Positions 1-48,107 of a DNA stretch of 48,107 nt are shown in pieces. Made by a program: the position numbers and the translations under genes. Origin of the DNA: a virus; IMG/VR virus record IMGVR_UViG_3300037460_000370, positions 1-48,107 of that record. The stretch is one strand, 5' to 3'. Each line of letters begins with the position of its first letter. The stretch's first letter is position 1. The notes beneath the pieces are model-generated. The model was not told the origin of the DNA. It searched no databases and was given only the letters and a program-made list of their open reading frames with translations.

Positions 1-127
1 TTGTTGGGAATTGTGGAATCATTAGCTACCTTAGAGCTTTGGGGTGAATTTTTCTCGTTGAATTCATCTAAGTATTTGCTAACCTTCCAAATTGTTATTT
101 TTTCAGCATTACTAGTATGACCCTTAT
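1..127. repeat. Terminal direct repeat, left copy
   Basis: This stretch is identical to 47981-48107. An exact 127-bp end overlap is what a de Bruijn assembly with k=127 leaves on a circular contig, so I read it as a circularity signature and not as a biological terminal repeat. It means the window is a full genome of 47,980 unique bases, opened inside a gene. Confidence 0.95.
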
Positions 128-598: not shown

Positions 599-819
599 TA
601 GTTATTGTGTGACATTCCCCTGTAAAAGTCATTGAATTTACTAGACATAATATTCAATGGATATTTCTTTCTAATCAATAATCGTATCGCGGCGTATCGT
701 AAAAATTGAGAACGAGATATATTTAATTTTCCTGCTTCATGGTCGCAAGCTGTTAATAGTAATGGTTCCATGTACCCCTTATAGTCTTTTCTAAATTTAT
801 CAGAATACTTTGCAAACAT
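598..819 (-). CDS. Small basic protein downstream of the primase-helicase
   Basis: A 73-residue protein. The start is taken at ATG 819, which overlaps the TGA of the primase-helicase gene as TGATG, so translation is probably coupled; a TTG one codon upstream is possible. It is Lys/Arg-rich, with YSDKFRKDYKGYMEPLLL at the front and LNISRSQFLRYAAIRLLIRKKY in the middle. The latter resembles the second half of a ribbon-helix-helix fold (a polar helix, a turn and an amphipathic helix), so a DNA-binding role is possible but unproven. It is the last gene before the cassette array and lacks the array's inverted repeat. Confidence 0.7.
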   Translation of the reverse strand: MFAKYSDKFRKDYKGYMEPLLLTACDHEAGKLNISRSQFLRYAAIRLLIRKKYPLNIMSSKFNDFYRGMSHNN

Positions 820-3581
820 CAAAACCTCTCCAACTCAACATCCTCTTCAATCTCTTCTGTAAATATTACGTTATAGGGTATCGCTATTGCCGGACATCTT
901 CTTTTGTCGGCGAACACTGCCGTTTTTGCCTTCGCTCCTTTGTGTCTCATTAATACCAATTTGTACCCGTTATTCCAAGGTGTTTTTTCTAATAGTTTAC
1001 TTAAGATACTATGATTCTCTGCAAAGGCTACCTCGTAAGTCAACAACTCTCTGTTTTTAATGGTGGTTATTCCATATTTGCGGAGCGTTTCCCTTGCCCT
1101 GCCCCGCTCGGTTTCTATTCTGTTGTATTCCTCACCATCAACAGTACTCGTTGTCCTTCGTCCGGCCTTTTCGATTAACGATCCCATTGCTTCCGTATTG
1201 GTTCCCTCATCATTTTTAACTACCTGTTGCAAAATAGTTTCAAGGCATTTCTCTTGATCTGTTTTTTCTTCAATGGTAGTTTCTGCAATCCAGTCAATGG
1301 TTTCGGCCCACGCCCTCGCATCTATTGTTTTAACAATATCGTCAGATTTCAAGGCGAACGCTCCCGCAAGTAATGTACCTAACTGGTCACCGTGGCGTTT
1401 ACTTTTCATTATCTTTGACATTACAGCTGAAAACACATCTATATTTTTTCTAATTACCGGAATTAATTTAACTGATCTCGCCCTTAATTTTCTGCAATAA
1501 TCTTCTGTCAATGTGTCCATAACCAACTCTCGTAATATGTCAAATTTATTACCGCTTTCATAATCATCTCTTTTGACCAATCTCAAAACAGATATTCTAC
1601 TTTGATCTGCTGCGAGTATTAATTTTGGATTGATTGAAGAAAACAAAAAGCATGACCTAATACAATATGACTGTGCTTTTCCCCCGGCGGTCCCTTTCAC
1701 TATGGACGCGCTCTGGTTACTCGAAGATTGCCTGGCGAGTTCAATTATTTTCTGTATTCGGTAAAACGAGTCCCGGTCTTCCGTTTCGCATTCATCAAAT
1801 ACAACCGGAAAGCTATCATTCTGCAAGCTCTGTCTAATCCCCGCCTCTGTTGAACTCGCATTTGCATTTAACGCAAAGCGTTTTAATAATTGCGATATAA
1901 CATTATCCTGTATCCACGTTTTACCGGTTCCGGTTTCGCCTGTCAACCAGATGTGCGGTCTCCAATCGATAGCGCCACATATCGGAGCGATTACAATCCA
2001 CCCTGAAAACAGTTTAGAATTTATTTTATTTTCCCATGAAAACAGTTCCGTTATTTCGAGTAATTTACCAGCCTCTTTAATGCATAACGATTCCGCCATA
2101 AAACCTACCGCCCCCTCGGTAGGGATTTCAGCTTCATATATATAATATGAATCGATTTCATCTATTTTTATTTCTTTGCTATCAACGATCAATTTATTTC
2201 CCATGTGTAAAACTGTTCTTTTGGCATCAAACCATGCTCCCCGGCCACGGCATCGCATCGGATCATATATCCCCACCTTTTCACATTGCCGGATACAATC
2301 ATTTGCGGCGGCAGTATAATCAGCACCACTTTTCATGGGGTATTCCCGTTCAAAATATTGTACTGGGGCCAAAGATAGTAAAGTCATTTTAGTGTGGCCG
2401 GCGGCTGACAACGCTGTTACTTTGTGCGTTCCCACTGGTAAATAATAATAAGTTATGTTCCCACTGTATGAATTGTATCCCAGGCATTGAAACGGCTGAC
2501 GAAGCGCTGATACTGCTGGTTTCTGTGATAAACTATCGAATTTAATTATATTATCGGTTATAAACTTAAGTACCTTTTTAACATCCCATCCGTCTTTTAT
2601 CGCGTCATCTATATCCCAGCCGTCTTTATATTCTTCAGGCGGTTTAACGAGTCGAGCGCTTTTAATTTTCTTTTTATTCATGTTGTAAATCTTAATCATT
2701 GCAGCAGGGCCAGATTGCTCCTGAAAATCCATAACCTCGCCTGCCCGTTCGTGCCTGTCTTTATATTTTTGCGTATCTGCGTCAGGCCAGGATATCGTTT
2801 TCCTTCCTTTAAGGTAATCCCATTTTGTTGTAGTTGCTCCCTTGTCGCCTCCGATCCAAGATATTACAACAACATTTTTAATATCAATAAATAATTTTTC
2901 ACCTGCATCAGCGCATTTCTCACCACTAACAATTATAACTTGTGCGTCTGGATTTTCTATTAATTTATCAAGTTTGTAAATAGGCCGTGGTATCGGAAAA
3001 GATTTAAATCTCCATTCTTTATTTGAACCGTTTTTGCAGTATGTCAATGGAACTATTTCTTTTTCATGCTTACCATTTTTCTTAATTTCTGGATATATAA
3101 CTAAACAACCGTATCCTGCAGGTTCACCATTCTTTGTTCGATAGGTATAATAAGTATTAATTTTAAACCGTTTCCATGATTCATCTATTTTTTTCGGGTA
3201 TTCAACAGGCCTTGGCGGCGCTGTGTCCGGTACCGGTATTATCGGAGACCATTGACCGCCGCGCTTTTTCTTTTTGAATTCATCCGGCAATATAACGTTG
3301 AATTCTTTCTGCAGAGCGATAGCAGCGTCTCCCTGGGAGAGATTGCTAATATACGCATACAAAGACACCGGATCTGACCCCCCTACGTCATCGCAGGCGA
3401 AATCAGTCCATAGGCCTGTTTTTGTATTTACCTTGAAAGATCCCTCGTGATTGTCCGGACGCTGAGGGTTGCGCACAACGTATTCAGCACCCTCAAAGCG
3501 TCCACCGGGTATCCAGGACGGGATAACTCCCTTGAGGCTCACAATAACAGCCTGATTGATTCGGTCGAAGTCGATAGGCAT
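819..3581 (-). CDS. Primase-helicase, Toprim plus DUF927-like P-loop ATPase
   Basis: A 920-residue replication protein. Residues 1-100 look like the fold before Toprim in phage primases (GSFKVNTKTGLWTDFACDDVGG), but the zinc cysteines are missing. Toprim motifs follow: VIIVSGEKCADA with E221, and WPDADT with D267 and D269. The C-terminal half is a DUF927-like helicase domain with Walker A GETGTGKT (548-555), Walker B VVFDECE (593-599) and a downstream FSSINP stretch. It probably primes and unwinds DNA at the phage origin. The gene begins one base after the TAA of the RHH gene (TAACCATG) and ends overlapping gene A. Fusion of primase and helicase in one chain is common in phages and mobile elements. 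Confidence 0.88.
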   Translation of the reverse strand: MPIDFDRINQAVIVSLKGVIPSWIPGGRFEGAEYVVRNPQRPDNHEGSFKVNTKTGLWTDFACDDVGGSDPVSLYAYISNLSQGDAAIALQKEFNVILPDEFKKKKRGGQWSPIIPVPDTAPPRPVEYPKKIDESWKRFKINTYYTYRTKNGEPAGYGCLVIYPEIKKNGKHEKEIVPLTYCKNGSNKEWRFKSFPIPRPIYKLDKLIENPDAQVIIVSGEKCADAGEKLFIDIKNVVVISWIGGDKGATTTKWDYLKGRKTISWPDADTQKYKDRHERAGEVMDFQEQSGPAAMIKIYNMNKKKIKSARLVKPPEEYKDGWDIDDAIKDGWDVKKVLKFITDNIIKFDSLSQKPAVSALRQPFQCLGYNSYSGNITYYYLPVGTHKVTALSAAGHTKMTLLSLAPVQYFEREYPMKSGADYTAAANDCIRQCEKVGIYDPMRCRGRGAWFDAKRTVLHMGNKLIVDSKEIKIDEIDSYYIYEAEIPTEGAVGFMAESLCIKEAGKLLEITELFSWENKINSKLFSGWIVIAPICGAIDWRPHIWLTGETGTGKTWIQDNVISQLLKRFALNANASSTEAGIRQSLQNDSFPVVFDECETEDRDSFYRIQKIIELARQSSSNQSASIVKGTAGGKAQSYCIRSCFLFSSINPKLILAADQSRISVLRLVKRDDYESGNKFDILRELVMDTLTEDYCRKLRARSVKLIPVIRKNIDVFSAVMSKIMKSKRHGDQLGTLLAGAFALKSDDIVKTIDARAWAETIDWIAETTIEEKTDQEKCLETILQQVVKNDEGTNTEAMGSLIEKAGRRTTSTVDGEEYNRIETERGRARETLRKYGITTIKNRELLTYEVAFAENHSILSKLLEKTPWNNGYKLVLMRHKGAKAKTAVFADKRRCPAIAIPYNVIFTEEIEEDVELERF

Positions 3582-3765: not shown

Positions 3766-4560
3766 TTATTGTAAGTATATGGCTCGTTCGATGAAATTAT
3801 AAAACTCACCCACCAATTCATGAACAAAATCTTTATCATAATCATATTTCGCAATATCCCGCACCAACTCTTTCCTCTTCACATCGATATCCAGATTATC
3901 AAATATCTCCGGCAAAATATCGCTGAATTTATCATAAATTTTTTCCATAATCTCAACCATTTGAGGGTGCGGTTTTCCGGCGGTACCAAGCGCCCGGAGC
4001 GAGAGGACGTGCCTCCATTCTCTTAAATTGAAAGTCATAACGATTTCAGTCTTTGTACTGTTCGGGAGGACGGAGCGCGCTTCCTGGGGAGAACAACCAT
4101 AAGCGGTTAACGCTTCGTAATCTGACGCGGCATTGAACATACTACTAAGCCATGTCTGTTCTTTGGCATTCAAATCACAACGGGCGATTATATTCGAGTC
4201 AAAAGTCCCGACCGGAATGCCAGGGAAAAACAAAGGCTTAATAAACACACAACCGCCCTTTTTGACGTAGTTACAATACCGGGTACTCTCCTGAGAGTAT
4301 GCAGCTATTCTGTGCCTGACGAGCTCATGTGATACACCACGGTCAAGAATAGCGTTTACCGTGATACTGACGTGTTCTATCATTGAATGGTGTCCGGATT
4401 TAATCTTATCTTTGACAAACTTCGAGGCTGAATCATCCATAATCTTATCTTCGGATTTATAACATTTTCGCCCGCACCATTCTATTTTCTTCAGTGCGGT
4501 CTTAATTGTCTCGAGATCATATTTGCAAATCTCGTATGAAGGTTCTACTATTGTTATCAT
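3766..4560 (-). CDS. thyX: Flavin-dependent thymidylate synthase ThyX
   Basis: A 264-residue protein that converts dUMP to dTMP using FAD, NADPH and methylene-tetrahydrofolate. The ThyX signature RHRxxxxxxxSxRY is present as RHRIAAYSQESTRY at residues 82-95, preceded by the HHSMIEH stretch near 57-63 seen in the family. The C-terminal EARSVLPNSTKTEIVMTFN and REWRHVLSLR stretches are also typical of the substrate-binding half. Length is within the family norm. ATG 4560 follows AGGAGG and overlaps the preceding stop codon. Phages carry thyX to raise the dTTP supply during replication, which fits its place directly upstream of the primase-helicase. Confidence 0.96.
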   Translation of the reverse strand: MITIVEPSYEICKYDLETIKTALKKIEWCGRKCYKSEDKIMDDSASKFVKDKIKSGHHSMIEHVSITVNAILDRGVSHELVRHRIAAYSQESTRYCNYVKKGGCVFIKPLFFPGIPVGTFDSNIIARCDLNAKEQTWLSSMFNAASDYEALTAYGCSPQEARSVLPNSTKTEIVMTFNLREWRHVLSLRALGTAGKPHPQMVEIMEKIYDKFSDILPEIFDNLDIDVKRKELVRDIAKYDYDKDFVHELVGEFYNFIERAIYLQ

Positions 4561-5965: not shown

Positions 5966-6221
5966 TATAATTCATGGCAAGCAAAAGGGCATTCCTAATG
6001 TATTATTATTTTATTCCTATAAAAAACACCTTTACTTATTACCCTTAAACAACTTACAATCCAAAACTGTGTAAAGTAACCGATTTCCGGGAAAAAAAAT
6101 ACACTATATACAATACATTTATTTATAAACCTATAAACACATTAGAGAAAAGCCTCGCGTATAGTATGTATTTATTTTATTACCTTTTATTATTATTATT
6201 ATTATTATTATGGCTTTACAA

Positions 6222-6459: not shown

Positions 6460-7053
6460 TTGACTGCCAAGCCAAGAATCAGACCACCCTACAAGAACTA
6501 CGAAGAGAATCAAAAGAGGATACTAGACACTCTGGGAGAGCTGGAAAAAGAAGGTAATTCATTTCCCTCATATAGGCAGATAGCAGAACACTCCGGACTC
6601 TCGAAGCGAACCGTAGAGCGCCATTATGAACGCCTTGACTTTGGATATATCTGTGAAAGGGAAAAGATACATACACCTAATGTGATTAAGGCCATAAGAG
6701 AAACGGCTCACAAAGACAAGAAACCACGCGCTCAAAAGCTCTACGCTCAAATAATGGAAACCTGGATTGAGAAGAAAGAGGAAAGGCGCGATATCGTCGG
6801 TGACCTGGAAATCAACGCGAACATATCCGGTGAGTTAAATGTGAATGTTAAGCGCAGTATTATACGGTCCCGCGAAGAGTTGGAAGCGTTGCAGAATATC
6901 GCTGATGCGGTTAAGCAGAAGTCAAGCCCTGGAGAGCAGGCGGGTAAAGGTGGCGAGAAGGATGCCCATAAGTTCGATGATATATTGCAGAACGTGCCGG
7001 GTCTGGGAGGCACTGTAATTGAGAACGTTGACACTATGATATTTTTTGAATAA
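6460..7053 (+). CDS. Helix-turn-helix DNA-packaging protein, probable small terminase
   Basis: A 197-residue protein that probably binds phage DNA at the packaging site and loads the large terminase. Residues about 35-65 form a helix-turn-helix (FPSYRQIAEHSGLSKRTVER). A helical stretch follows, then ELEALQNIADAV, matching the oligomerisation region of small terminase subunits. Position as first gene of the virion arm, shortly before the large terminase, supports the call. The start is TTG 6460, because the frame is closed by a TAA at 6436 and has no other usual start before residue 90; the ribosome binding site is weak. A transcription regulator of the late arm is the alternative. Confidence 0.62.
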   Translation: MTAKPRIRPPYKNYEENQKRILDTLGELEKEGNSFPSYRQIAEHSGLSKRTVERHYERLDFGYICEREKIHTPNVIKAIRETAHKDKKPRAQKLYAQIMETWIEKKEERRDIVGDLEINANISGELNVNVKRSIIRSREELEALQNIADAVKQKSSPGEQAGKGGEKDAHKFDDILQNVPGLGGTVIENVDTMIFFE

Positions 7054-32988: not shown

Positions 32989-33498
32989 TCATTTTCGCCG
33001 GTTTTGCTGCTCAGTTTTATTTACGATATTCGTAACATCCTCCCCGAAAGCGAAAAACGGACACACGAATTTACGGATATCCCCCTCAATGTCGAACTCC
33101 ATTGGATTTTCCATTAGTTTTTTCATACGGGAATTGATACAATGTCGCTGAATAGAACCTGGGATTTCTTGATATTTTCCGTCTCCATTGACACATTGCG
33201 AACCACCAATGAAACCATGAGGAATGTCTAGTCTTGTTCTATCGCCACACTCATTACAACATAACATAGGTTGAGTCTCTTCCAAGGACTCACAATTCTG
33301 ACAGCACCTCCGATTGTGGTGTCTTTTATCTCGGAGGCGCTTGCAGACCTCTAATAATATCTCGGTTTCCTCAATGAAATTATCCAAATCCCAGTGAGTT
33401 TGTATTCCTATTTTTTTAAGCGTAATTGTATCGGGAGGTGGAGGTGTTGGTTGTGGTCTTTTCCCAATATCTACAGGTGGATCTTTTTTATGTTTCAT
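32989..33498 (-). CDS. Cys-rich protein encoded with the SMC-like ATPase
   Basis: A 169-residue protein. The front has a Pro-rich linker (PQPTPPPPD). A helix follows (DNFIEETEILLEVCKRLRDK), then CCQNC and CCNECGDRTRLD, likely zinc ligands, with further cysteines at GSQCVNGDGK, QRHC and FVCPFFAF. ATG 33498 overlaps the stop of the Rad50-like gene (ATGA). Function unknown; metal binding is likely. Confidence 0.68.
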   Translation of the reverse strand: MKHKKDPPVDIGKRPQPTPPPPDTITLKKIGIQTHWDLDNFIEETEILLEVCKRLRDKRHHNRRCCQNCESLEETQPMLCCNECGDRTRLDIPHGFIGGSQCVNGDGKYQEIPGSIQRHCINSRMKKLMENPMEFDIEGDIRKFVCPFFAFGEDVTNIVNKTEQQNRRK

Positions 33499-35165
33499 AC
33501 CACCTTCCCTTCATCAATCCAGTATGCCTTACCGTTTATTTTTGAGAGATCAGGCATATCCTCTCGATTATCAAGAGCGGTCACAACGATTGATTGAGTA
33601 TCCGATCTCAATATTACTTTTAACAAATCATTTCGTATGCTCTTTGTCAATTCGTCAGTATCATCAATGATAACGAATCTAGAGTTCTCTGCCATAGCTA
33701 CCATTAACTGAAGCAATACCCTTGCCCGGTATCTTTCCGATTTCGCAATCAGGCGACCGTATGGAGTCCCGGAAACTGTTATGTTACAATCCGGGGTGAC
33801 TTCGATCATTCCCCACCCGACGGGATCGGTTAATAATTTCATAGAGTTATTTATCTTTGCCAGTGCAGTTGTCAACTTTTTATTTCGCAATCCAGCAGGC
33901 GCAAGGATATCGCACAGCTTTTTACTCAGCTTTATATCACCCGATATCTTGTGCGCTTCTTTATACTGTCGAAATGCTGCGAGCCTATCTTCTGCATAGG
34001 CAAGTTTATTCTTGACATCCTCAACGTTCGCGCCTTTGTCACCGTCCTGCTTGAGTTTGACATTCTTTAATTTCAGCGCCGCGTCCCTTGCAACTTTCAA
34101 CGACGACTTTTCCGCTCCCCAGGCCGATAGCAATTCATTGTTTTGCACCTGTAAAGATTTAATATCTTTCTCATGCTGTGCAATTTCAGCTTTATTTTTT
34201 CCGGCTGTTACATGGTCAGATTTTGGAATCTTTTTCAGCTCACCGCCGGAGAGTGTGAGCGTTTCCTGGCATGAAGGACATATTAACCCGCGCACCTCTT
34301 TCGCGCTTGTTAAATCACGGATGCGTGTTTTCTTGATGTTCATTTCATCTTCACAGATATCCTGCTGTTTTTTTAGAGAGTCCAATTTCTTTTTGATACC
34401 ATTGATATTACAGGAGATTGATTCAAGGCGCTCGACTTCAAAGTCAGAAACAGCAGTATCTTTAATTGCAGCCTCAGTCCATTCTTTGTGTTTATTGACT
34501 TCTGCAATTAAATCTTTCTCGGATGTTTTTTCGAGGTCAGGTTCCCATTTAGCAGGGAGGTAGGCATCTGCTTTCCTTTTACCATAATCCTTTACATCGG
34601 AAACAATCTCCCACTTAGCTTTATACTTTGCCCCTCTCCCTTTTGCCTGTGTGTGCATCGCGTCCCATCCGTTAAGGTCTATTCCTTCCCAGAGACGTTT
34701 GAAGAAATCAGTGTTTAATATATCAACGCCTGGATTGAAAATCTGCGATTCCATTAATTCATCTTTGAGATCATCGGCAGTCGGTGACGCTTTCATTAAA
34801 TTGACAATGTAATTGGTACGCTCTGGTAAGTTCATATCAACAAGGGATTGTATTCCGCTTGCGACATCGGAAACGGTTACCGCTTCACCTCTGGTTATGT
34901 AGTCACATTTCGGCCAGTCAATACGGGACTTATTATCCCCTTCGTTAATTTCCGCATAAGCCGAAGGACTTCCTGACCTGACAAGCATTGATATTTCCTT
35001 CTTTGTTATTTCCTTGAATGGGTTAAACTGTGCTGACGCGACAGATCGTATCGCGTCAATCAATGACGTTTTCCCCACTGCATTCTTGCCACAGATTAAA
35101 GTTAGCTTTGACAACTCAATGTCAGCGGCTGAAATTTTACGGTAGTTTCTTATTTTGAAATTCAT
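33495..35165 (-). CDS. Rad50/SbcC-like ATPase with zinc hook
   Basis: A 556-residue compact SMC-type ATPase for DNA end processing or recombination. Walker A is GKNAVGKTS (26-34). Coiled coils flank a zinc-hook motif CPSC at 296-299. The C-terminal lobe has a degenerate signature (AKSERYRAR, 474-482) and Walker B FVIIDDTDE with D501-D502. It is smaller than host SbcC and lacks a partner SbcD nuclease nearby, but RecT and a Cas4-like nuclease are in the same operon. It overlaps the 49-residue gene upstream by four bases. Confidence 0.85.
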   Translation of the reverse strand: MNFKIRNYRKISAADIELSKLTLICGKNAVGKTSLIDAIRSVASAQFNPFKEITKKEISMLVRSGSPSAYAEINEGDNKSRIDWPKCDYITRGEAVTVSDVASGIQSLVDMNLPERTNYIVNLMKASPTADDLKDELMESQIFNPGVDILNTDFFKRLWEGIDLNGWDAMHTQAKGRGAKYKAKWEIVSDVKDYGKRKADAYLPAKWEPDLEKTSEKDLIAEVNKHKEWTEAAIKDTAVSDFEVERLESISCNINGIKKKLDSLKKQQDICEDEMNIKKTRIRDLTSAKEVRGLICPSCQETLTLSGGELKKIPKSDHVTAGKNKAEIAQHEKDIKSLQVQNNELLSAWGAEKSSLKVARDAALKLKNVKLKQDGDKGANVEDVKNKLAYAEDRLAAFRQYKEAHKISGDIKLSKKLCDILAPAGLRNKKLTTALAKINNSMKLLTDPVGWGMIEVTPDCNITVSGTPYGRLIAKSERYRARVLLQLMVAMAENSRFVIIDDTDELTKSIRNDLLKVILRSDTQSIVVTALDNREDMPDLSKINGKAYWIDEGKVV

Positions 35166-36182: not shown

Positions 36183-37121
36183 TTAAAATAAGTCTGGAAT
36201 TTCTTCCATTTCTTCCGGTTCTAATTCCTGTTCTTTATTGCTGAATATATCTTCCTGGGTATTTTCGATTACGTCGGAGGGTGGGGATAGGTCAGCTTCG
36301 TTTTTGTCAATTTCAGCATCCTGCGTCTCGGTATCTTCAGGGGACATCGCTGACGACTCATCGTGCAATCCATCTAACACATCGTTAGGTGGTATCTCCC
36401 CCAGCTGTAACTTCTCTTTCGGAGCCTCCGGCACTGTCTCGTTGTCGGTATTGATCTGACTTACAGTATCCGGCGCGTCGATTTCTTTCTCCCTGTTAAT
36501 CTCCAATTCGAGCGCGTCGTCTATGCGTTCGGCTTCGTCAAGGTCGACCGCCTCGTTTACTCCGAAAGCTACGCGGACGCCCTGTATAAGCGTTTTATGT
36601 CTGTGCATACGTCTTGTGTGCGAATCCCACGGGCTTGAGTATTTACGTTCGACATAACACTCGTCAAGATATTCACGAACGACAGCAGGATATTTTCGAT
36701 CCTTGACATAGATAATTATTTCTATCCATTCAAATCCTAACTTAGATTTACCGACTTTAATCGTTTCTTCAGAATAACGGAACTCAAACCCATCAAACTG
36801 AGGATGCGTATTCATTATCTTAATCCATCCATCGACACTAACGATAGGCATTAATACGCCTTTTTTATTCCGAAAGGCAAATATCTCCCTTGTAAATGGA
36901 TTGAGTTTGTATTTTTCCGCGACTGATAACAGGGATATCATTTCCGATGAATTCGCTTCCGCTTCTTTTTCATCAGTTTTAAATGCGGTATTCCTCAAGA
37001 CAGTTGCAATCTGATTCGAAGGTATATTGTAATTCTGAGACATTTTCTCGAATACAGAATCAAGAATATCGTCCTTTGTTTCTGTGACGGTGGTTTTTTT
37101 TGTTTCTTTCTGTTTTGCCAT
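36183..37121 (-). CDS. recT: RecT/Bet-type single-strand annealing protein
   Basis: A 312-residue recombinase that anneals complementary single strands. Residues about 60-215 carry the RecT family pattern: SEMISLLSVAEKYKLNPFTR, EIFAFRNKKGVLMPIVSVDG, WIKIMNTHPQFDGFEF and the SPWDSHTRRMHRHKTLIQGV region followed by RVAFGVNEAVDLDEAERI. The last 80 residues are acidic and disordered and end in MEEIPDLF, a form that often binds host SSB. It pairs with the nuclease at 38287-39105. AAAGGAG precedes ATG 37121. Confidence 0.92.
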   Translation of the reverse strand: MAKQKETKKTTVTETKDDILDSVFEKMSQNYNIPSNQIATVLRNTAFKTDEKEAEANSSEMISLLSVAEKYKLNPFTREIFAFRNKKGVLMPIVSVDGWIKIMNTHPQFDGFEFRYSEETIKVGKSKLGFEWIEIIIYVKDRKYPAVVREYLDECYVERKYSSPWDSHTRRMHRHKTLIQGVRVAFGVNEAVDLDEAERIDDALELEINREKEIDAPDTVSQINTDNETVPEAPKEKLQLGEIPPNDVLDGLHDESSAMSPEDTETQDAEIDKNEADLSPPSDVIENTQEDIFSNKEQELEPEEMEEIPDLF

Positions 37122-41236: not shown

Positions 41237-41276
41237 CACTTTTAATCACTTTTAATCACTTTTAGTAATTTTTAAT
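41237..41276 (-). repeat. Four phased 10-bp repeats upstream of the promoter
   Basis: On the plus strand CACTTTTAAT twice (41237-41246, 41247-41256), then CACTTTTAGT (41257-41266) and AATTTTTAAT (41267-41276). T tracts recur once per helical turn, so the DNA should be bent, as in UP elements or activator sites. The last unit overlaps the stop codon of the VRR-NUC gene. Confidence 0.78.
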
Positions 41277-41688
41277 CACGGCCCGTAATTATTGGTAACG
41301 ACATAATTCTAGTAATATCGGCTGGACTCCTTACTACGCCTGCGATTCCGCCCGATTCGAGTATCATATTTTGGTAGTTTTTTTGCTGCGGTTTTAATCG
41401 ATCTGTCCCGGCTTTTATTTCGAGCGCACAGAAACGAGGGATATTATATCCTGAGAGCTCTACACTTTTGAACCCGATGCAATCAGAGGAGCCTTTCGCG
41501 AGTCCAAATTTCATTCTTCGGGGATTCTTCAGGACAATAAAATTGTCTTTCCCTTCCTGGTATTCACTGACAACCGTTCCCAGATATCCAAGCCCGACAG
41601 GATTCGGCCACAGCTTTACACCTGGCATTTTGTTCGCCTCAATTAATGTCTGGGATCGGATGTTGTGGTGTGATTTATAGGTTTTCAT
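41272..41688 (-). CDS. VRR-NUC nuclease
   Basis: A 138-residue nuclease of the VRR-NUC branch of PD-(D/E)XK enzymes. ATG 41688 is chosen because AGGAG precedes it. Motifs are GSSDCIGF (D69), CALEIKAG (E90, K92), then LKPQQKNYQ (Q101) and GGIAGVVRSPAD. Stand-alone VRR-NUC proteins in phages are thought to cut branched DNA such as Holliday junctions during packaging or recombination. The stop lies in the repeat array of the next promoter. Confidence 0.88.
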   Translation of the reverse strand: MKTYKSHHNIRSQTLIEANKMPGVKLWPNPVGLGYLGTVVSEYQEGKDNFIVLKNPRRMKFGLAKGSSDCIGFKSVELSGYNIPRFCALEIKAGTDRLKPQQKNYQNMILESGGIAGVVRSPADITRIMSLPIITGRD

Positions 41689-41933
41689 TTTATACTCCTG
41701 AATATCCATATGAATAATTTCAATTTATTAATCCAGTATGCAAAAATTGTAAAACGTTTTGAACCGAACAACGCCCTATACATACCGTTTTCCATCAATA
41801 GTATAGTATGCTTGACAGATTTCGGTTTTGCTTCTTTATATTCCTGTTCGTATTCTACATATGGATTTTGTAAATCACCTGGGAATGCGTTTTTGCATTC
41901 TTTTATTTTTATATCTACATCGTCAATATTCAT
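41685..41933 (-). CDS. Small hypothetical protein
   Basis: An 82-residue protein. ATG 41933 is chosen (GGGGATG in front); it overlaps the ASCH gene by 11 bases and the VRR-NUC start by four. Acidic front (MNIDDVDIKIKECKNAFPGD) and a hydrophobic basic end (FTIFAYWINKLKLFIWIF) that may touch membrane. No family recognised. Confidence 0.6.
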   Translation of the reverse strand: MNIDDVDIKIKECKNAFPGDLQNPYVEYEQEYKEAKPKSVKHTILLMENGMYRALFGSKRFTIFAYWINKLKLFIWIFRSIK

Positions 41934-42688: not shown

Positions 42689-43657
42689 TTATAATATACT
42701 CAACTGTTCATTCTCTACTTTGTCATATATCCCTACTTCACATTCTTCCATATTTCTTGACATCTGCCTGAAGTATGATTCCTTCAATTCTGCTGCAATA
42801 CCTTTTCTTCCTAAAGATACCGCCGAATAAGGCTCGGAACCAATACCACCAAAAGGGGAAAAAACCTTTTCTTCAATGTTTGACCTCAATATAATTACTC
42901 TATCTATTATATCAAGTTGCAATGGATGTACATGTTTTTCGTCATCGGGTTCTTTCCCTTCTTTGTATGGGAGTACACGCCCCATTCTTACGTCATCCCA
43001 AACACTTGAAGCGTATTGTCTCCATATCCAATGGGAATACCTGTTTTCAGTTTGTTTCCCCTGCCAATTTTTATATTTTAACAATTCGCTTGGAACGGGC
43101 GCTTCGCCAGCATAATACGAGAGTCCTGTAGTATGTGCAACTGGTATAGAATTCTCACCTTTTTTTCTAAATAATATTAAATAATCACCACTTGCCACCC
43201 CTCCGTAAACCCCATCTTCAACTATTGTCCTATGCGACAAGTTATGAGTCATGGTTCTGTTTCGTACCCACAAAGGCTCTTTCCAAATAACATGTCGAGC
43301 GATATAATCCCATCCGATTTTTTTATGGAGTTTGATTATATCCCCTGGAAGATCAATTAAAGAATCTCTTCCAGAATTACCAGAGGGAATATCTGTACAA
43401 TGCACAGCGGTTATCCGGCCTTTCATGGTAATCCTATGTAAAGCTTTTACAGCATAGCCATAATGTTCAAAGAATTCATCATAGTCATAACAGTTTGATA
43501 TGTCAAGAGGATCACTGCTGTAATTATATAATCCCCCGAATGGAGGGGAATATACAGATAAATGTATTGACTCTTCAGGCATTGCATTCATGATCTCATT
43601 ACAATCCCCACAATATATAGCATAATCATCTGTTATTATTTGATCCTTTACAGCCAT
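42689..43657 (-). CDS. DNA methyltransferase, beta-type motif order
   Basis: A 322-residue amino-methyltransferase. Catalytic motif IV is SPPF (37-40) in VYSPPFGGLYNY; motif I, FSPFGGIGSE (266-275), comes near the C-terminus, so the order is that of beta-class enzymes. SPPF in place of DPPY or SPPY leaves open whether the target is N4-cytosine or N6-adenine. It overlaps the helicase gene by 10 bases, a pairing seen in phages. No cognate restriction nuclease is present. It probably protects phage DNA from host restriction. Confidence 0.88.
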   Translation of the reverse strand: MAVKDQIITDDYAIYCGDCNEIMNAMPEESIHLSVYSPPFGGLYNYSSDPLDISNCYDYDEFFEHYGYAVKALHRITMKGRITAVHCTDIPSGNSGRDSLIDLPGDIIKLHKKIGWDYIARHVIWKEPLWVRNRTMTHNLSHRTIVEDGVYGGVASGDYLILFRKKGENSIPVAHTTGLSYYAGEAPVPSELLKYKNWQGKQTENRYSHWIWRQYASSVWDDVRMGRVLPYKEGKEPDDEKHVHPLQLDIIDRVIILRSNIEEKVFSPFGGIGSEPYSAVSLGRKGIAAELKESYFRQMSRNMEECEVGIYDKVENEQLSIL

Positions 43658-45208: not shown

Positions 45209-46651
45209 CTATCTATATTTATGAATGCCATTCTCATCGAGTAAACCTTTATCTTCCCATGATTTATATATATATCCGGCCCACCCGTCCTTATACGGCG
45301 GTACCTGCATTTTTCCAAACTCTTTCAAGTCATCGAGCGTCCGGCATTGCCTGCGCTTATGTTTCATGTCATGTTTTTCTAAATCTTCCTTAATACGTGC
45401 GGTCTCTATTTCCTGTAGTTCTACCCGTTCGTCAACTTTAGGAAGTTTGAAACCGTTTACGTATTTGTAGCCACATTTAGGACACATAGGGCATGGAGCG
45501 TGAACGTTGAAACACATCGGGCAAGTACGCACTAATAATCTACCTTCTTCGTCTAATATGTTTTTGCTATACCTTGAACCTTCCAGGCTCCACGTTCTCA
45601 TTGCGTCGGGCATGCCGTGCCGTGTATAGTTCCCTACATGGTCAAGTATATACGCATATTCCTTGCCGGGATACGGACGGGACGCGCGCCCCCACTGTTG
45701 TAAGCAGAGCGTTAACGATTGCGTGTGACGTAGATTAATTGCACAACCGCACACAGGCACGTCGAATCCCTCCGATACTAAATCGCATGAACATAGTACC
45801 ATGATGCGGCCACGGGCAAGGGACTCAAATAAATATTTCCTTTGCTTTTCAGGAGTTTTCCCTGAAACGGAAGCGGCGGTAATTCCGGCATCTTTAAATT
45901 CATCTGCGGCCCATTCGGCATGTTTGACAGTTACGCAAAATGCTATTGCAGGAATACCATAACATATCTTTTTATAATGTCCGGGAACAGAGCCGTATAT
46001 CTTTTTCCGTTCATAAATAGCCGCCAATTCTTTTCTATCCCAATCCCCACCTATCCTTTTAACTTCTGATACGTCAACATCTAATTTAGGAGCGAATAAT
46101 TTATAAGGTGCAATATATTCAGGTGTCAAGTCAAGCATCTGTGATCCGAGGATTAATTCATCAAAGAACCCGCCCGACTGTAAACCGAGTCCCTGGCCGT
46201 TCGTTCTACATGGCGTTGCTGTGACTCCTAATAATGGAACATCCGGCCAATATTCCGCGACTTTTCCCCACTTATTATTTCGTATAACATGGTGAGCCTC
46301 GTCATATATTATAATATCCGGTTTCTGCATTTTGTCAAGCCTGCGGATTAATGTATCAATAGATGCAATTTGTATTTTGTCAGCGGTGCGTGTGTGCCCA
46401 GGAGCTATTATCCCGTGATGCACTCCGATGTCTGTTAGTTTATCTGAAACCTGTTTCCACAGGAAGGACCTGTGTACTATAATTAGGGATCGGTTACCTT
46501 TTTGCTCTGCCTGCGTTGCTATCGATGTAAATATGTGTGTTTTTCCTGAACCGGTCGGCATGACTAATAGAGGAGCCTTACGCCCCTGTCGGAGCGCTAA
46601 ACGGATATTGTTTTCCGCTTCTTTTTGGTATGGTCGGAGGATGTGGTTCAT
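45209..46651 (-). CDS. DEAD/DEAH superfamily 2 helicase with zinc ribbon
   Basis: A 480-residue helicase of the SSL2/type III restriction subunit kind found in phages. Walker A PTGSGKT (32-38), DEAH box (117-120), motif III GVTATPCR, motif V LVSEGFDVP and motif VI QQWGRASRPYPGK are all present. A C-terminal zinc module follows (CPMCFNVHAPCPMCPKCGYK), then a basic tail. It probably unwinds DNA for replication or recombination. ATG 46651 overlaps the previous stop. Confidence 0.92.
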   Translation of the reverse strand: MNHILRPYQKEAENNIRLALRQGRKAPLLVMPTGSGKTHIFTSIATQAEQKGNRSLIIVHRSFLWKQVSDKLTDIGVHHGIIAPGHTRTADKIQIASIDTLIRRLDKMQKPDIIIYDEAHHVIRNNKWGKVAEYWPDVPLLGVTATPCRTNGQGLGLQSGGFFDELILGSQMLDLTPEYIAPYKLFAPKLDVDVSEVKRIGGDWDRKELAAIYERKKIYGSVPGHYKKICYGIPAIAFCVTVKHAEWAADEFKDAGITAASVSGKTPEKQRKYLFESLARGRIMVLCSCDLVSEGFDVPVCGCAINLRHTQSLTLCLQQWGRASRPYPGKEYAYILDHVGNYTRHGMPDAMRTWSLEGSRYSKNILDEEGRLLVRTCPMCFNVHAPCPMCPKCGYKYVNGFKLPKVDERVELQEIETARIKEDLEKHDMKHKRRQCRTLDDLKEFGKMQVPPYKDGWAGYIYKSWEDKGLLDENGIHKYR

Positions 46652-46818
46652 TTTTTTACTGGCTTTTCAGATGATTCTATTTTAAGAGATCGTTTTTCTA
46701 TAAATGGACATATCGATTCCGCACAGTCAGCATAGTCAAGATATTCGTCGCTTAAATCACAATGTTTACCAAAATGACAGTTGCAATGCAATTGAAATAG
46801 TTCGAATTTAATTTCCAT
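46648..46818 (-). CDS. Short Cys/His-rich protein
   Basis: A 56-residue protein from ATG 46818, preceded by AAAGGAG, ending at TGA 46648 inside the helicase ATG. LHCNCHFGKHCDL and DCAESICPF supply up to five cysteines and three histidines, a likely metal site. It starts the tight cluster with the helicase. Function unknown. Confidence 0.66.
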   Translation of the reverse strand: MEIKFELFQLHCNCHFGKHCDLSDEYLDYADCAESICPFIEKRSLKIESSEKPVKK

Positions 46819-46882
46819 ATCACACTCCTTTTTGTATTATATTATTAACATCTACCCGTGATTACCAGAGAGGGCGGCGACA

Positions 46883-47083
46883 TTACGAAGGTTCCCTCAG
46901 TGCCTTTTTGTCAATGTCCTCTTTGATTTTATCCCCTTCGGGTATCGTTAAATCATTTTCAATTCTTATTCTGATATTATCAATCACTAAGTCGATGTCA
47001 TTTACCCTGCTTTTAGCAAATATTTCAAGCTCATCCTTCACGATATCACAGATTTTATTTATATCCTTCATTGTTCCCAACAT
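46883..47083 (-). CDS. Gene F, helical protein after the cassette array
   Basis: A 66-residue charged helical protein (KDINKICDIVKDELEIFAKS, then IDLVIDNIRIRIENDL). The start is uncertain: ATG 47083 or ATG 47071, the latter lying directly after the GTTGGGAACA core of the last cassette site. No ribosome binding site is seen, so translation may be coupled to the stop at 47095. It has no inverted repeat at its 3' end, so it marks the far boundary of the array. Function unknown. Confidence 0.58.
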   Translation of the reverse strand: MLGTMKDINKICDIVKDELEIFAKSRVNDIDLVIDNIRIRIENDLTIPEGDKIKEDIDKKALREPS

Positions 47084-47222
47084 TCCGCAAAGGGCTATTG
47101 TTGCGCTATTTTTTCCAACTTTTCTATTACAGCCCAAATTTGAATTAACCCATTACCATGACGCTTCCTGTCATTCAATTCCTCAACATACAAAGCAATT
47201 GTAGCCTTTGTCGTGTTGGGAA
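47074..47222. repeat. attC-like inverted repeat, site E
   Basis: Outer arms TTCCCAAC (47074-47081) and GTTGGGAA (47215-47222). Inner arms CAAAGGGCTA (47088-47097) and TAGCCTTTG (47202-47210) pair apart from one extra G in the left arm; TTGC/GCAA pairing continues inward. Left spacer 6 nt, right spacer 4 nt. Total 149 bp, enclosing the last 40 codons of gene E. Confidence 0.75.
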
Positions 47223-47400
47223 TTGTGGAGTTGGCAGCTACCCCTTTTTCTGAGGCGCGTTTTTCTTCAGGTGAAAGCCTTGACAATGCTCGTTCCCCCA
47301 CTTGAATCCTATTAGCAGCCCACTCTGGATATAAACTCCCCGCTTGCAAAATATTTATCTTATTGCCAACATCGTCTTCGTATCGTTTTTCTAAATCCAC
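47095..47400 (-). CDS. Cassette gene E
   Basis: A 101-residue charged protein. The start is GTG 47400 with AGGAGG in front. The N-terminal half (LEKRYEDDVGNKINILQAGS, then WAANRIQVGERALSRLSPEE) looks like a small DNA-binding fold: an ILQAGSLYPEWAANRIQVG stretch, a turn, then a basic RLSPEEKRA helix. Next comes the shared peptide GVAANSTIPN (compare KVANDSTIPN in gene C). The last 40 residues are helical and lie in the inverted repeat. Function not assigned. Confidence 0.72.
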   Translation of the reverse strand: MDLEKRYEDDVGNKINILQAGSLYPEWAANRIQVGERALSRLSPEEKRASEKGVAANSTIPNTTKATIALYVEELNDRKRHGNGLIQIWAVIEKLEKIAQQ

Positions 47401-47447
47401 TTAGCGCCTCCTATAATAATCGTTTTGACAACGGAATTGTTCCCAAC
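47401..47447 (-). promoter_or_regulatory. Conserved cassette leader upstream of gene E
   Basis: Minus strand GTTGGGAACAATTCCG, then ACGATTATTATAGGAGG before the GTG. Its last part, ACGATTATTATA, is identical to that of the gene B leader although genes B and E are unrelated. Confidence 0.7.
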
Positions 47448-47590
47448 GTTCGACAAATGGGTTTAGTTAAACCCGCTCTTCAAATTTATCTAACCCACCA
47501 CATACAACACATTTACGATAAGCAGCACTCCACGCATTAGGTTTCGGATTGCAAGTACAGGGTTTTATTAAATCCCTTTGTTTGTTGGGA
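47440..47590. repeat. attC-like inverted repeat, site D
   Basis: Outer arms TTCCCAAC (47440-47447) and GTTGGGA (47584-47590). Inner arms CAAATGGG (47454-47461) and CCCTTTG (47574-47580) pair except for one extra T in the left arm; TTTAGTTAAACCC and GGGTTTTATTAAA continue the pairing with some mismatches. Left spacer 6 nt, right spacer 3 nt; total 151 bp, enclosing the last 38 or so codons of gene D. Confidence 0.75.
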
Positions 47591-47793
47591 GATGGGGAAT
47601 GAGTAGCTTCCTCTTCTTCCCGAGTTTTTTTATCAAGACCATGTAACAATACTCGTATTTTCCGCAAACTCTCAATATGATCTAAACCAAAAGGACAACT
47701 GTTTGCATCTTCATCGGCTCCCGCTTTATACCCCTTAATCCACCAAATTATGTCAGCAAGATTATCAATGTCTGTTTGAACTATTTTTTCCAT
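47467..47793 (-). CDS. Cassette gene D, Cys-containing small protein
   Basis: A 108-residue protein from ATG 47793, with TAGGAG upstream. The front is acidic and helical (VQTDIDNLADIIWWIKGYKA, LDHIESLRKIRVLLHGLD). Then EEATHSPSPNKQ is the counterpart of the shared STIPNK peptide. The end has CTCNPKPNAWSAAYRKCVVC, four cysteines as in a zinc ribbon, and lies in the inverted repeat. It is unrelated to genes B, C and E outside the shared segments. Function unknown. Confidence 0.72.
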   Translation of the reverse strand: MEKIVQTDIDNLADIIWWIKGYKAGADEDANSCPFGLDHIESLRKIRVLLHGLDKKTREEEEATHSPSPNKQRDLIKPCTCNPKPNAWSAAYRKCVVCGGLDKFEERV

Positions 47794-47842
47794 AGATAAA
47801 AACTCCTATAATATTCTCTTGACGAATGGACTTTCTCCCAAC
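47794..47842 (-). promoter_or_regulatory. Conserved cassette leader upstream of gene D
   Basis: Minus strand GTTGGGAGAAAGTCCATTCG, then GAATATTATAGGAG before the ATG. It is the most diverged of the GTTGGG leaders but keeps the same order and spacing. Confidence 0.65.
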
Positions 47843-47990
47843 GTCCGATCAAGTGTTTAGTTTCCGACTATAATGTCACGAGTACTACTCATAATTAATC
47901 TATCCCTGTCACTCAATTTACCATGTTTTGCAATAAGTGACTTCCGCACTTCCCCATAATTAGGAAATTTAATACTTGATTTGTTGGGAA
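47837..47990. repeat. attC-like inverted repeat, site C
   Basis: Outer arms CCCAAC (47837-47842) and GTTGGG (47983-47988). Inner arms ATCAAGTGTT (47848-47857) and AATACTTGAT (47971-47980) pair fully with one G-T; GTTTCC and GGAAAT extend it. No unpaired base here, unlike the other three. Left spacer 5 nt, right spacer 2 nt; total about 154 bp. In the circular genome the right arm is at positions 3-10. Confidence 0.72.
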
Positions 47991-48107
47991 TTGTGGAATC
48001 ATTAGCTACCTTAGAGCTTTGGGGTGAATTTTTCTCGTTGAATTCATCTAAGTATTTGCTAACCTTCCAAATTGTTATTTTTTCAGCATTACTAGTATGA
48101 CCCTTAT
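47857..48107 (-). CDS. Cassette gene C, C-terminal part
   Basis: This is the continuation of the gene that starts at 155; bases 47981-48107 repeat positions 1-127. The C-terminal region, after the shared STIPNK peptide, reads KSSIKFPNYGEVRKSLIAK and ends in RDIIVGN. The stop TAA (47857-47859) falls inside the left arm of an inverted repeat (CCCAAC at 47837-47842, ATCAAGTGTT at 47848-47857). Charged, about 92 residues in total, no recognised domain. Its placement in a run of unrelated same-strand genes with common flanks is the informative feature; no function can be assigned. Confidence 0.75.
   Translation of the reverse strand, partial: KGHTSNAEKITIWKVSKYLDEFNEKNSPQSSKVANDSTIPNKSSIKFPNYGEVRKSLIAKHGKLSDRDRLIMSSTRDIIVGN
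47981..48107. repeat. Terminal direct repeat, right copy
   Basis: Exact copy of positions 1-127; see the left copy. It should be counted once in the circular genome. Confidence 0.95.

Follow-up and report, generated by a model that had tools for sequence, protein, structure and literature searches.

An array of four attC-like hairpins closing small genes in a circular tailed-phage genome

Introduction

By definition, the attC sites of integrons combine AAC/GTT cores with a central spacer that stays unpaired and a terminal structure that varies, and extrahelical bases on their R''-L'' arm select the strand (PMC2727003). Integrase-less clusters of attC sites have been described in virulent phages, and IntI1 is able to recombine them (PMC9892861). 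Two further systems in phages are built on inverted repeats. The ESAS elements of cluster K mycobacteriophages are phage-specific imperfect repeats of 17 bp, with a spacer mostly of 4-13 bp, that lie upstream of start codons (PMC3203893). CTX is a filamentous single-stranded DNA phage whose attP(+) hairpin, which contains dif-like sequences, serves as its single integration site and is recombined by the XerCD enzymes of the host (PMC3089051).

Here we describe a tandem array of four hairpin sites in a tailed double-stranded DNA phage from a metagenome (IMG/VR record IMGVR_UViG_3300037460_000370; the whole stretch of 48,107 nt that was analyzed is called the window). The sites share several features with integron attC and CALIN sites, including those of the virulent phages TJE1, P12002L, and PH101 (PMC9892861): a variable interior enclosed by two pairs of boxes, cores of AAC/GTT, a spacer that is asymmetric and unpaired, and a bulged base (in three of the four sites here). 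In both, the strand opposite the genes folds more strongly, each site goes with one ORF, and no integrase lies nearby. Unlike attC, they are missed by an attC model, their bulge is on the opposite arm, their spacers are of about 3 and 6 nt, most of their boxes read GTTGGGA, coding sequence runs through the interior, and conserved leader and linker blocks lie outside the boxes. They resemble ESAS in being phage-specific imperfect inverted repeats with a variable spacer and no known function, and in their tie to a series of non-structural genes and the starts of those genes (PMC3203893), but the arms here are about 30 nt long and the interior of about 80-90 nt encodes the end of the previous gene, and short-spacer inverted repeats directly upstream of a start-associated sequence are not found. 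The CTX hairpin is similar in size, about 150 nt with arms about 90 nt apart, and shows that a phage hairpin can be served by a recombinase from the host (PMC3089051). It differs in being one integration site instead of an array, in belonging to a filamentous rather than a tailed phage, and in its dif-like sequences, which are not apparent in the window sites.

Results

The source record is a circular phage genome of 47,980 bp. Positions 1-127 of the window are identical to 47981-48107, and since 127 bases is the size of a common maximum assembler k-mer, this exact end repeat indicates a circular assembly in which the repeat is the assembly overlap. Because the genome is circular, the sites at 47076-47220 (A), 47442-47589 (B), 47837-47988 (C), and 200-349 (D) are consecutive and make up a single tandem array, with a helicase gene (45209-46651) on one side and a primase-helicase gene (819-3581) on the other. 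The arbitrary break in the assembly cuts through site C and gene C.

A first-pass annotation had described four inverted repeats built on CCCAAC/GTTGGG at spacings of about 340-400 bp, and all four are present at the places and with the arms reported, their starts being 366, 395, and 343 bp apart. The proposed R-L-variable-L-R layout is likewise present, with an asymmetric unpaired spacer. The remark that the boxes read GTTGGGA, one base off the integron consensus GTTRRRY, holds for most of them, the right box of site D being GTTGGGT. On the plus strand the CCCAAC outer boxes start at 47076, 47442, 47837, and 200 and the GTTGGG outer boxes end at 47220, 47589, 47988, and 349, bounding imperfect inverted repeats of 145-152 nt with arms of about 30 nt and an interior of about 80-90 nt. 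All four share one geometry on this strand: an outer box of 6-8 bp, a 3-4 nt bulge, 6-7 bp, and then the stem, which in A, B, and D is interrupted by a 1-nt bulge in the left inner arm; further pairing follows in all four, with a G-T pair about 25 nt in. Site C, whose right end is repeated at window positions 1-8 through the 127-bp end overlap, has no such single-base bulge. Conserved sequence reaches about 45 nt past the outer boxes on either side, and the sites, rather than being intergenic, overlap the 3' halves of four minus-strand ORFs. When all conceivable 6-mers were scanned as outer arms of a site with an inner stem, the CCCAAC family (with its one-base-shifted overlap TCCCAA) was the only cluster of at least three sites in the 14 kb around the array, and clusters of that size appeared in 0 of 5 first-order Markov sequences. 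Genome-wide, the largest cluster has four sites, compared with at most two in 40 of 40 second-order Markov genomes. We conclude that the array of four attC-like hairpins is a real element that could be a cassette-like gene-shuffling system or a hairpin-control system.

Each site forms the 3' end of one small ORF, and all four ORFs run in the same direction. Read along the minus strand, which carries the genes and all of the features described in this paragraph and the next, a unit consists of a leader, the start codon, a variable N-terminal part, a linker block, the box CCCAAC, a spacer of 3-4 nt, an inner arm, the interior, the second inner arm, a spacer of 6 nt, and the box GTTGGGA, directly after which, within the array, comes the leader of the next unit. 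The interior continues the ORF and encodes its C-terminal part, and the stop codon sits in the inner stem of the hairpin. Gene A (47095-47400; 101 aa, GTG start) ends in the inner stem of site A, which has one bulged base, and its C-terminal part lies inside the site. Genes B (47467-47793; 108 aa) and D (225-551; 108 aa) have Cys-rich C-terminal parts encoded inside sites B and D, and gene C (92 aa in all) runs across the window ends, with its 3' part at 47857-48107 and its 5' part at 1-155; its start codon is at position 155 and 1-127 duplicates 47981-48107.

The leaders of genes A (47401-47441; ACAATTCC...ATTATAGGAGG, with a ribosome-binding site), B (47794-47836), and C (156-199) are conserved, and the general form is GTTGGGAACAATTCC...TATAGGAG with a ribosome-binding site. 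The leader of gene D (552-611) includes a short degenerate hairpin, ACACAA...TTGTGT, that replaces a full site and marks where the array ends upstream; its downstream limit is marked by the gene after site A (46883-47075), which starts directly after the box GTTGGGA and lacks the conserved leader. The linker blocks, of the general form GTAGC......TTCCACA, are conserved in gene A (47221-47265; GTAGC...CTCCACAATT, before box R''), gene B (47590-47634), and gene C (47989-48033, with a copy at 9-53). In the linker block of gene D (350-394), CCCAAC is in another reading frame than in A-C, and its retention despite this difference indicates that it is the DNA motif, not the peptide, that is constrained.

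Between these conserved blocks, the N- and C-terminal coding parts of the four units are unrelated and cannot be aligned. Genes A, B, and D have no Pfam match above the cut-off, and genes A-D have no significant match among the PHROGs, the one collection searched with gene C. The single-sequence AlphaFold model of the gene D protein (mean pLDDT 63) predicts a helix at the N-terminus, followed by a linker of low confidence and then a small C-terminal part of higher confidence (about residues 80-108) that corresponds to the part encoded in the hairpin; the model of the gene B protein is of low confidence and uninformative. The leader, linker, and arm blocks favor conflicting pairings of the units, although this signal is weak (permutation p ~0.04, with paired arm columns counted as independent).

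Both strands were folded, as the first-pass annotation had suggested. Compared with dinucleotide shuffles, the sites fold more stably, and the difference is clearest on the plus strand with RNA parameters. For the full sites A-D, these parameters gave z values of -3.2, -3.7, -5.2, and -2.6 on the plus strand and -2.0, -1.5, -3.0, and -1.5 on the minus strand, with outer-box pairing probabilities of at least 0.98 on both strands; under DNA parameters the sites exceed shuffles by a smaller, modest margin (plus-strand z of -1.4 to -2.8). For the arms only, the energies are -28.8, -31.1, -27.3, and -30.2 kcal/mol on the plus strand and -23.4, -21.7, -16.3, and -25.3 kcal/mol on the minus strand. 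Hence the strand opposite the genes has the better arms-only fold at all four sites, which is the bottom-strand preference of attC, and class 1 attC sites showed the same bias in five of six cases. G-T pairs occur on the plus strand at matching stem positions across sites, and one of them recurs in every site at about 25 nt from the 5' end (21-22 nt from the 3' end), while the three minus-strand G-T pairs lie deep in the stem at scattered positions. Some of the plus-strand G-T pairs are probably common by descent, so their count is suggestive and does not amount to a formal test. RNAalifold on the plus-strand arms gives 19 pairs, eight of which have two-sided changes that keep the pair. Taken together, the arms-only folding, the G-T pairs, and the covariation point to the strand complementary to the genes as the probable folded molecule of interest, in the form of either single-stranded DNA or antisense RNA.

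The layout, the asymmetric spacer, the bulge in three of four sites, the folding, and the presence of one ORF per site all agree with the first-pass suggestion of integron-like recombination sites; the position of the bulge and a search with an attC covariance model do not. The model, built from 15 real attC sites (8 class 1 and 7 from Vibrio anguillarum), recovered all three held-out attC of phage TJE1 (28.3, 22.0, and 18.5 bits), held-out attC in a Shewanella phage (up to 25.2 bits), and held-out attC in other cassettes. With filters off and on both strands of 46500-48107 (sites A-C), its scores did not exceed 4.8 bits, with nothing at the sites, and a default scan of the whole window gave no match at site D either; as it was trained on only two attC types, a rare type could escape it. 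All four sites have AAC/GTT cores in CCCAAC/GTTGGG outer boxes. In terms of the full RYYYAAC/GTTRRRY boxes, TCCCAAC/GTTGGGA is one base off and only the right box of D, on the plus strand, fits. A gene-concordant extrahelical base on the R''-L'' arm is not seen: the bulge is on the L' arm in A, B, and D, and C has none. The spacers are of about 3 and 6 nt compared with 5 and 6 in attC (PMC2727003), whose left inner arm is one base longer. Because of the failure of the model, the bulge on the opposite arm, the differing spacers, and the failure to find a recombinase, Y1 transposase, or reverse transcriptase in the record, the sites were not filed as attC. They resemble attC in layout and, by these tests, are not members of the integron family.

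Searches for relatives covered viral contigs and prokaryotic genomes. Box and flank patterns gave about the number of matches expected by chance among the viral-contig matches listed, none of them with a hairpin or two sites, and the linker-box pattern gave 22 single matches in 84,980 prokaryote species (one genome each), all without a hairpin. Neither the closest primase relatives (at most 41% identity) nor their surroundings contain such an array, and scans of viral contigs with the neighboring genes found array-free loci. Against 50,697 phage records, tblastn gave no match for the gene D protein and a sole match at E ~3 for the four small proteins joined, and the DNA of 46700-48107 (sites A-C) gave short chance matches to phages. 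Provisionally, therefore, we consider the array to be absent elsewhere among the viral contigs and the 84,980 species genomes searched. A second covariance model, of the four arms alone, is too weak to find the sites it was built from when their long interiors are included, and its negatives were not used. Across other phage and plasmid loci totaling 1.3 Mb, it had one match, in Polaribacter phage P12002L (L261:32224-32280, minus strand; 18.6 bits, E 0.11), which is probably due to chance.

The phage record contains no tyrosine recombinase (PF00589), and thus no intI near the array, which CALINs also lack. No serine recombinase, HUH (Y1) transposase, or reverse transcriptase (PF00078), the last pertinent to a DGR or retron, was found in it. 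It does encode a Bet/RecT-like annealing protein (36183-37121, minus strand).

Discussion

The sites, their geometry, their strand bias, their place at gene 3' ends, and their failure in the attC test are established, and we now put forward a tentative reading of them, in which the array is a row of four gene cassettes that each end in an attC-like, non-integron site. While single-stranded during replication, the plus strand would fold into the hairpin, on which a structure-reading recombinase from the host would act or at which, alternatively, the annealing protein of the phage would carry out exchange. By either route, small genes could be gained, lost, or swapped between the conserved blocks, whether whole or as N- and C-terminal modules, in the manner of integron cassettes yet outside that family by the tests run. 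Indeed, unrelated segments alternating with conserved ones, together with covarying stems, are the pattern expected from exchange at structured junctions. The cassette reading is consistent with four sites of common geometry that stand out against Markov genomes, the eight of 19 covarying plus-strand pairs, the better folding of the gene-opposite strand with G-T pairs at matching positions, and a strand bias shared with class 1 attC. It also accommodates one ORF per site, all of them codirectional, unrelated coding parts set between conserved blocks, the CCCAAC kept although gene D reads it in another frame, the Bet/RecT-like protein encoded by the phage, and, weakly, the conflicting block relationships; integrase-less attC clusters recombined by IntI1 provide a precedent in virulent phages (PMC9892861). 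Against it are the attC model, which does not recognize the sites, the lack of a recombinase, transposase, or reverse transcriptase gene in the record, a single bulge on the arm opposite to that of attC (with none in C), and ORFs that span the whole site with conserved flanks that pass the boxes, unlike ordinary cassettes. Moreover, the same sites with other genes were seen in no relative found, and the folding excess with DNA parameters is modest. A more specific version, in which a tailed phage has a non-integron cassette system of folded single-stranded DNA whose hairpin interiors encode exchangeable C-terminal domains, and a recombinase acting in trans shuffles both genes and protein halves, we regard as distinctly unlikely. 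If the hairpins are recombination sites, attC-type cassette exchange on a folded strand exists outside integrons and phages build islands of small genes in this way, with the site doubling as coding sequence.

The cassette reading has two close rivals, RNA hairpins and duplication with homology-driven exchange. According to the first, which is possible although doubtful, the sites are regulatory or processing RNA elements, either plus-strand antisense RNAs over the gene 3' halves or hairpins in a polycistronic mRNA from the minus strand, such as sites between small early genes at which ribonuclease III would process the transcript. The base-pair covariation would be explained in this way, as would outer boxes that form with high probability on both strands and a folding excess that is larger with RNA than with DNA parameters. 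The G-T pairs, however, favor the plus strand, antisense to the genes, and so argue against the mRNA version. TATAAT-like sequences precede the hairpins on the plus strand in some units, but they overlap the ribosome-binding site, and a scan found no clear excess of promoters and no terminators; Rfam gave no match. If the hairpins do act as RNA, they represent a new conserved class of phage hairpin tied to early small genes.

The second rival, a platform for homologous recombination or a plain tandem duplication, takes the leader and linker blocks as the homology for module exchange, with a hairpin that engages no recombinase. These blocks do share direct-repeat homology, the phage has its RecT/Bet-like protein, and the block relationships conflict, if weakly; phages with repeats tied to the starts of small genes exist and are comparable in spirit (PMC3203893). 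We nevertheless consider it unlikely, as it leaves unexplained the covarying inner stems, the matching bulges, and the conserved plus-strand wobble pairs.

It is improbable that the units form a divergent CALIN, with true integron cassettes of an unusual attC type that were captured from a chromosomal integron of a host. The AAC/GTT cores, the one-ORF cassettes, and the virulent-phage precedent (PMC9892861) would fit, and in some sites box R'' is followed by AA(A/N)CAA, as in Vibrio attC. Yet the covariance model that recovers the TJE1 and Shewanella attC fails here, the bulge polarity and GTTGGGA differ, and the pattern matches in the 84,980 species genomes lead to no similar sites.

It is similarly improbable that the hairpins are single-strand replication or packaging signals, such as priming or origin structures, repeated beside the primase and helicase genes. 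The location between the primase-helicase (819-3581) and helicase (45209-46651) genes and a single-strand hairpin on the plus strand fit such a role, but no strand-skew switch is present at the array in the skew across the window, and known iterons do not resemble sites 343-395 bp apart inside four genes. The remaining candidates were rejected: a MITE or palindromic mobile element by the unrelated interiors, an invertible shufflon by the lack of a recombinase and of identical arms, a XerCD dif-type hairpin by the absence of dif similarity by eye, a retron or DGR by the lack of a reverse transcriptase, and transcription terminators by the scan, which found none.

Other features of the genome were noted in passing. 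The early region includes genes for a ThyX thymidylate synthase (3766-4560) and an N6/N4 DNA methyltransferase (42689-43657) and also holds the Bet/RecT annealing protein gene (36183-37121), all on the minus strand. A (TTA)8 run (6187-6211) lies between divergent genes, ahead of an HTH replication-initiation-like gene (6460-7053). A tandem array of the 10-bp unit CACTTTTAAT (41237-41279; 4.3 copies), which is found nowhere else in the window, overlaps the end of a VRR-NUC-like nuclease gene (41272-41709). A minus-strand gene for an AAA_15 ATPase (33495-35165), with weak similarity to defense ATPases of the AriA, PtuA, and GajA type (PADLOC best E 1.4e-16), lies at the convergent end of the early operon, adjacent to a gene for a 169-aa protein (32989-33498, minus strand).
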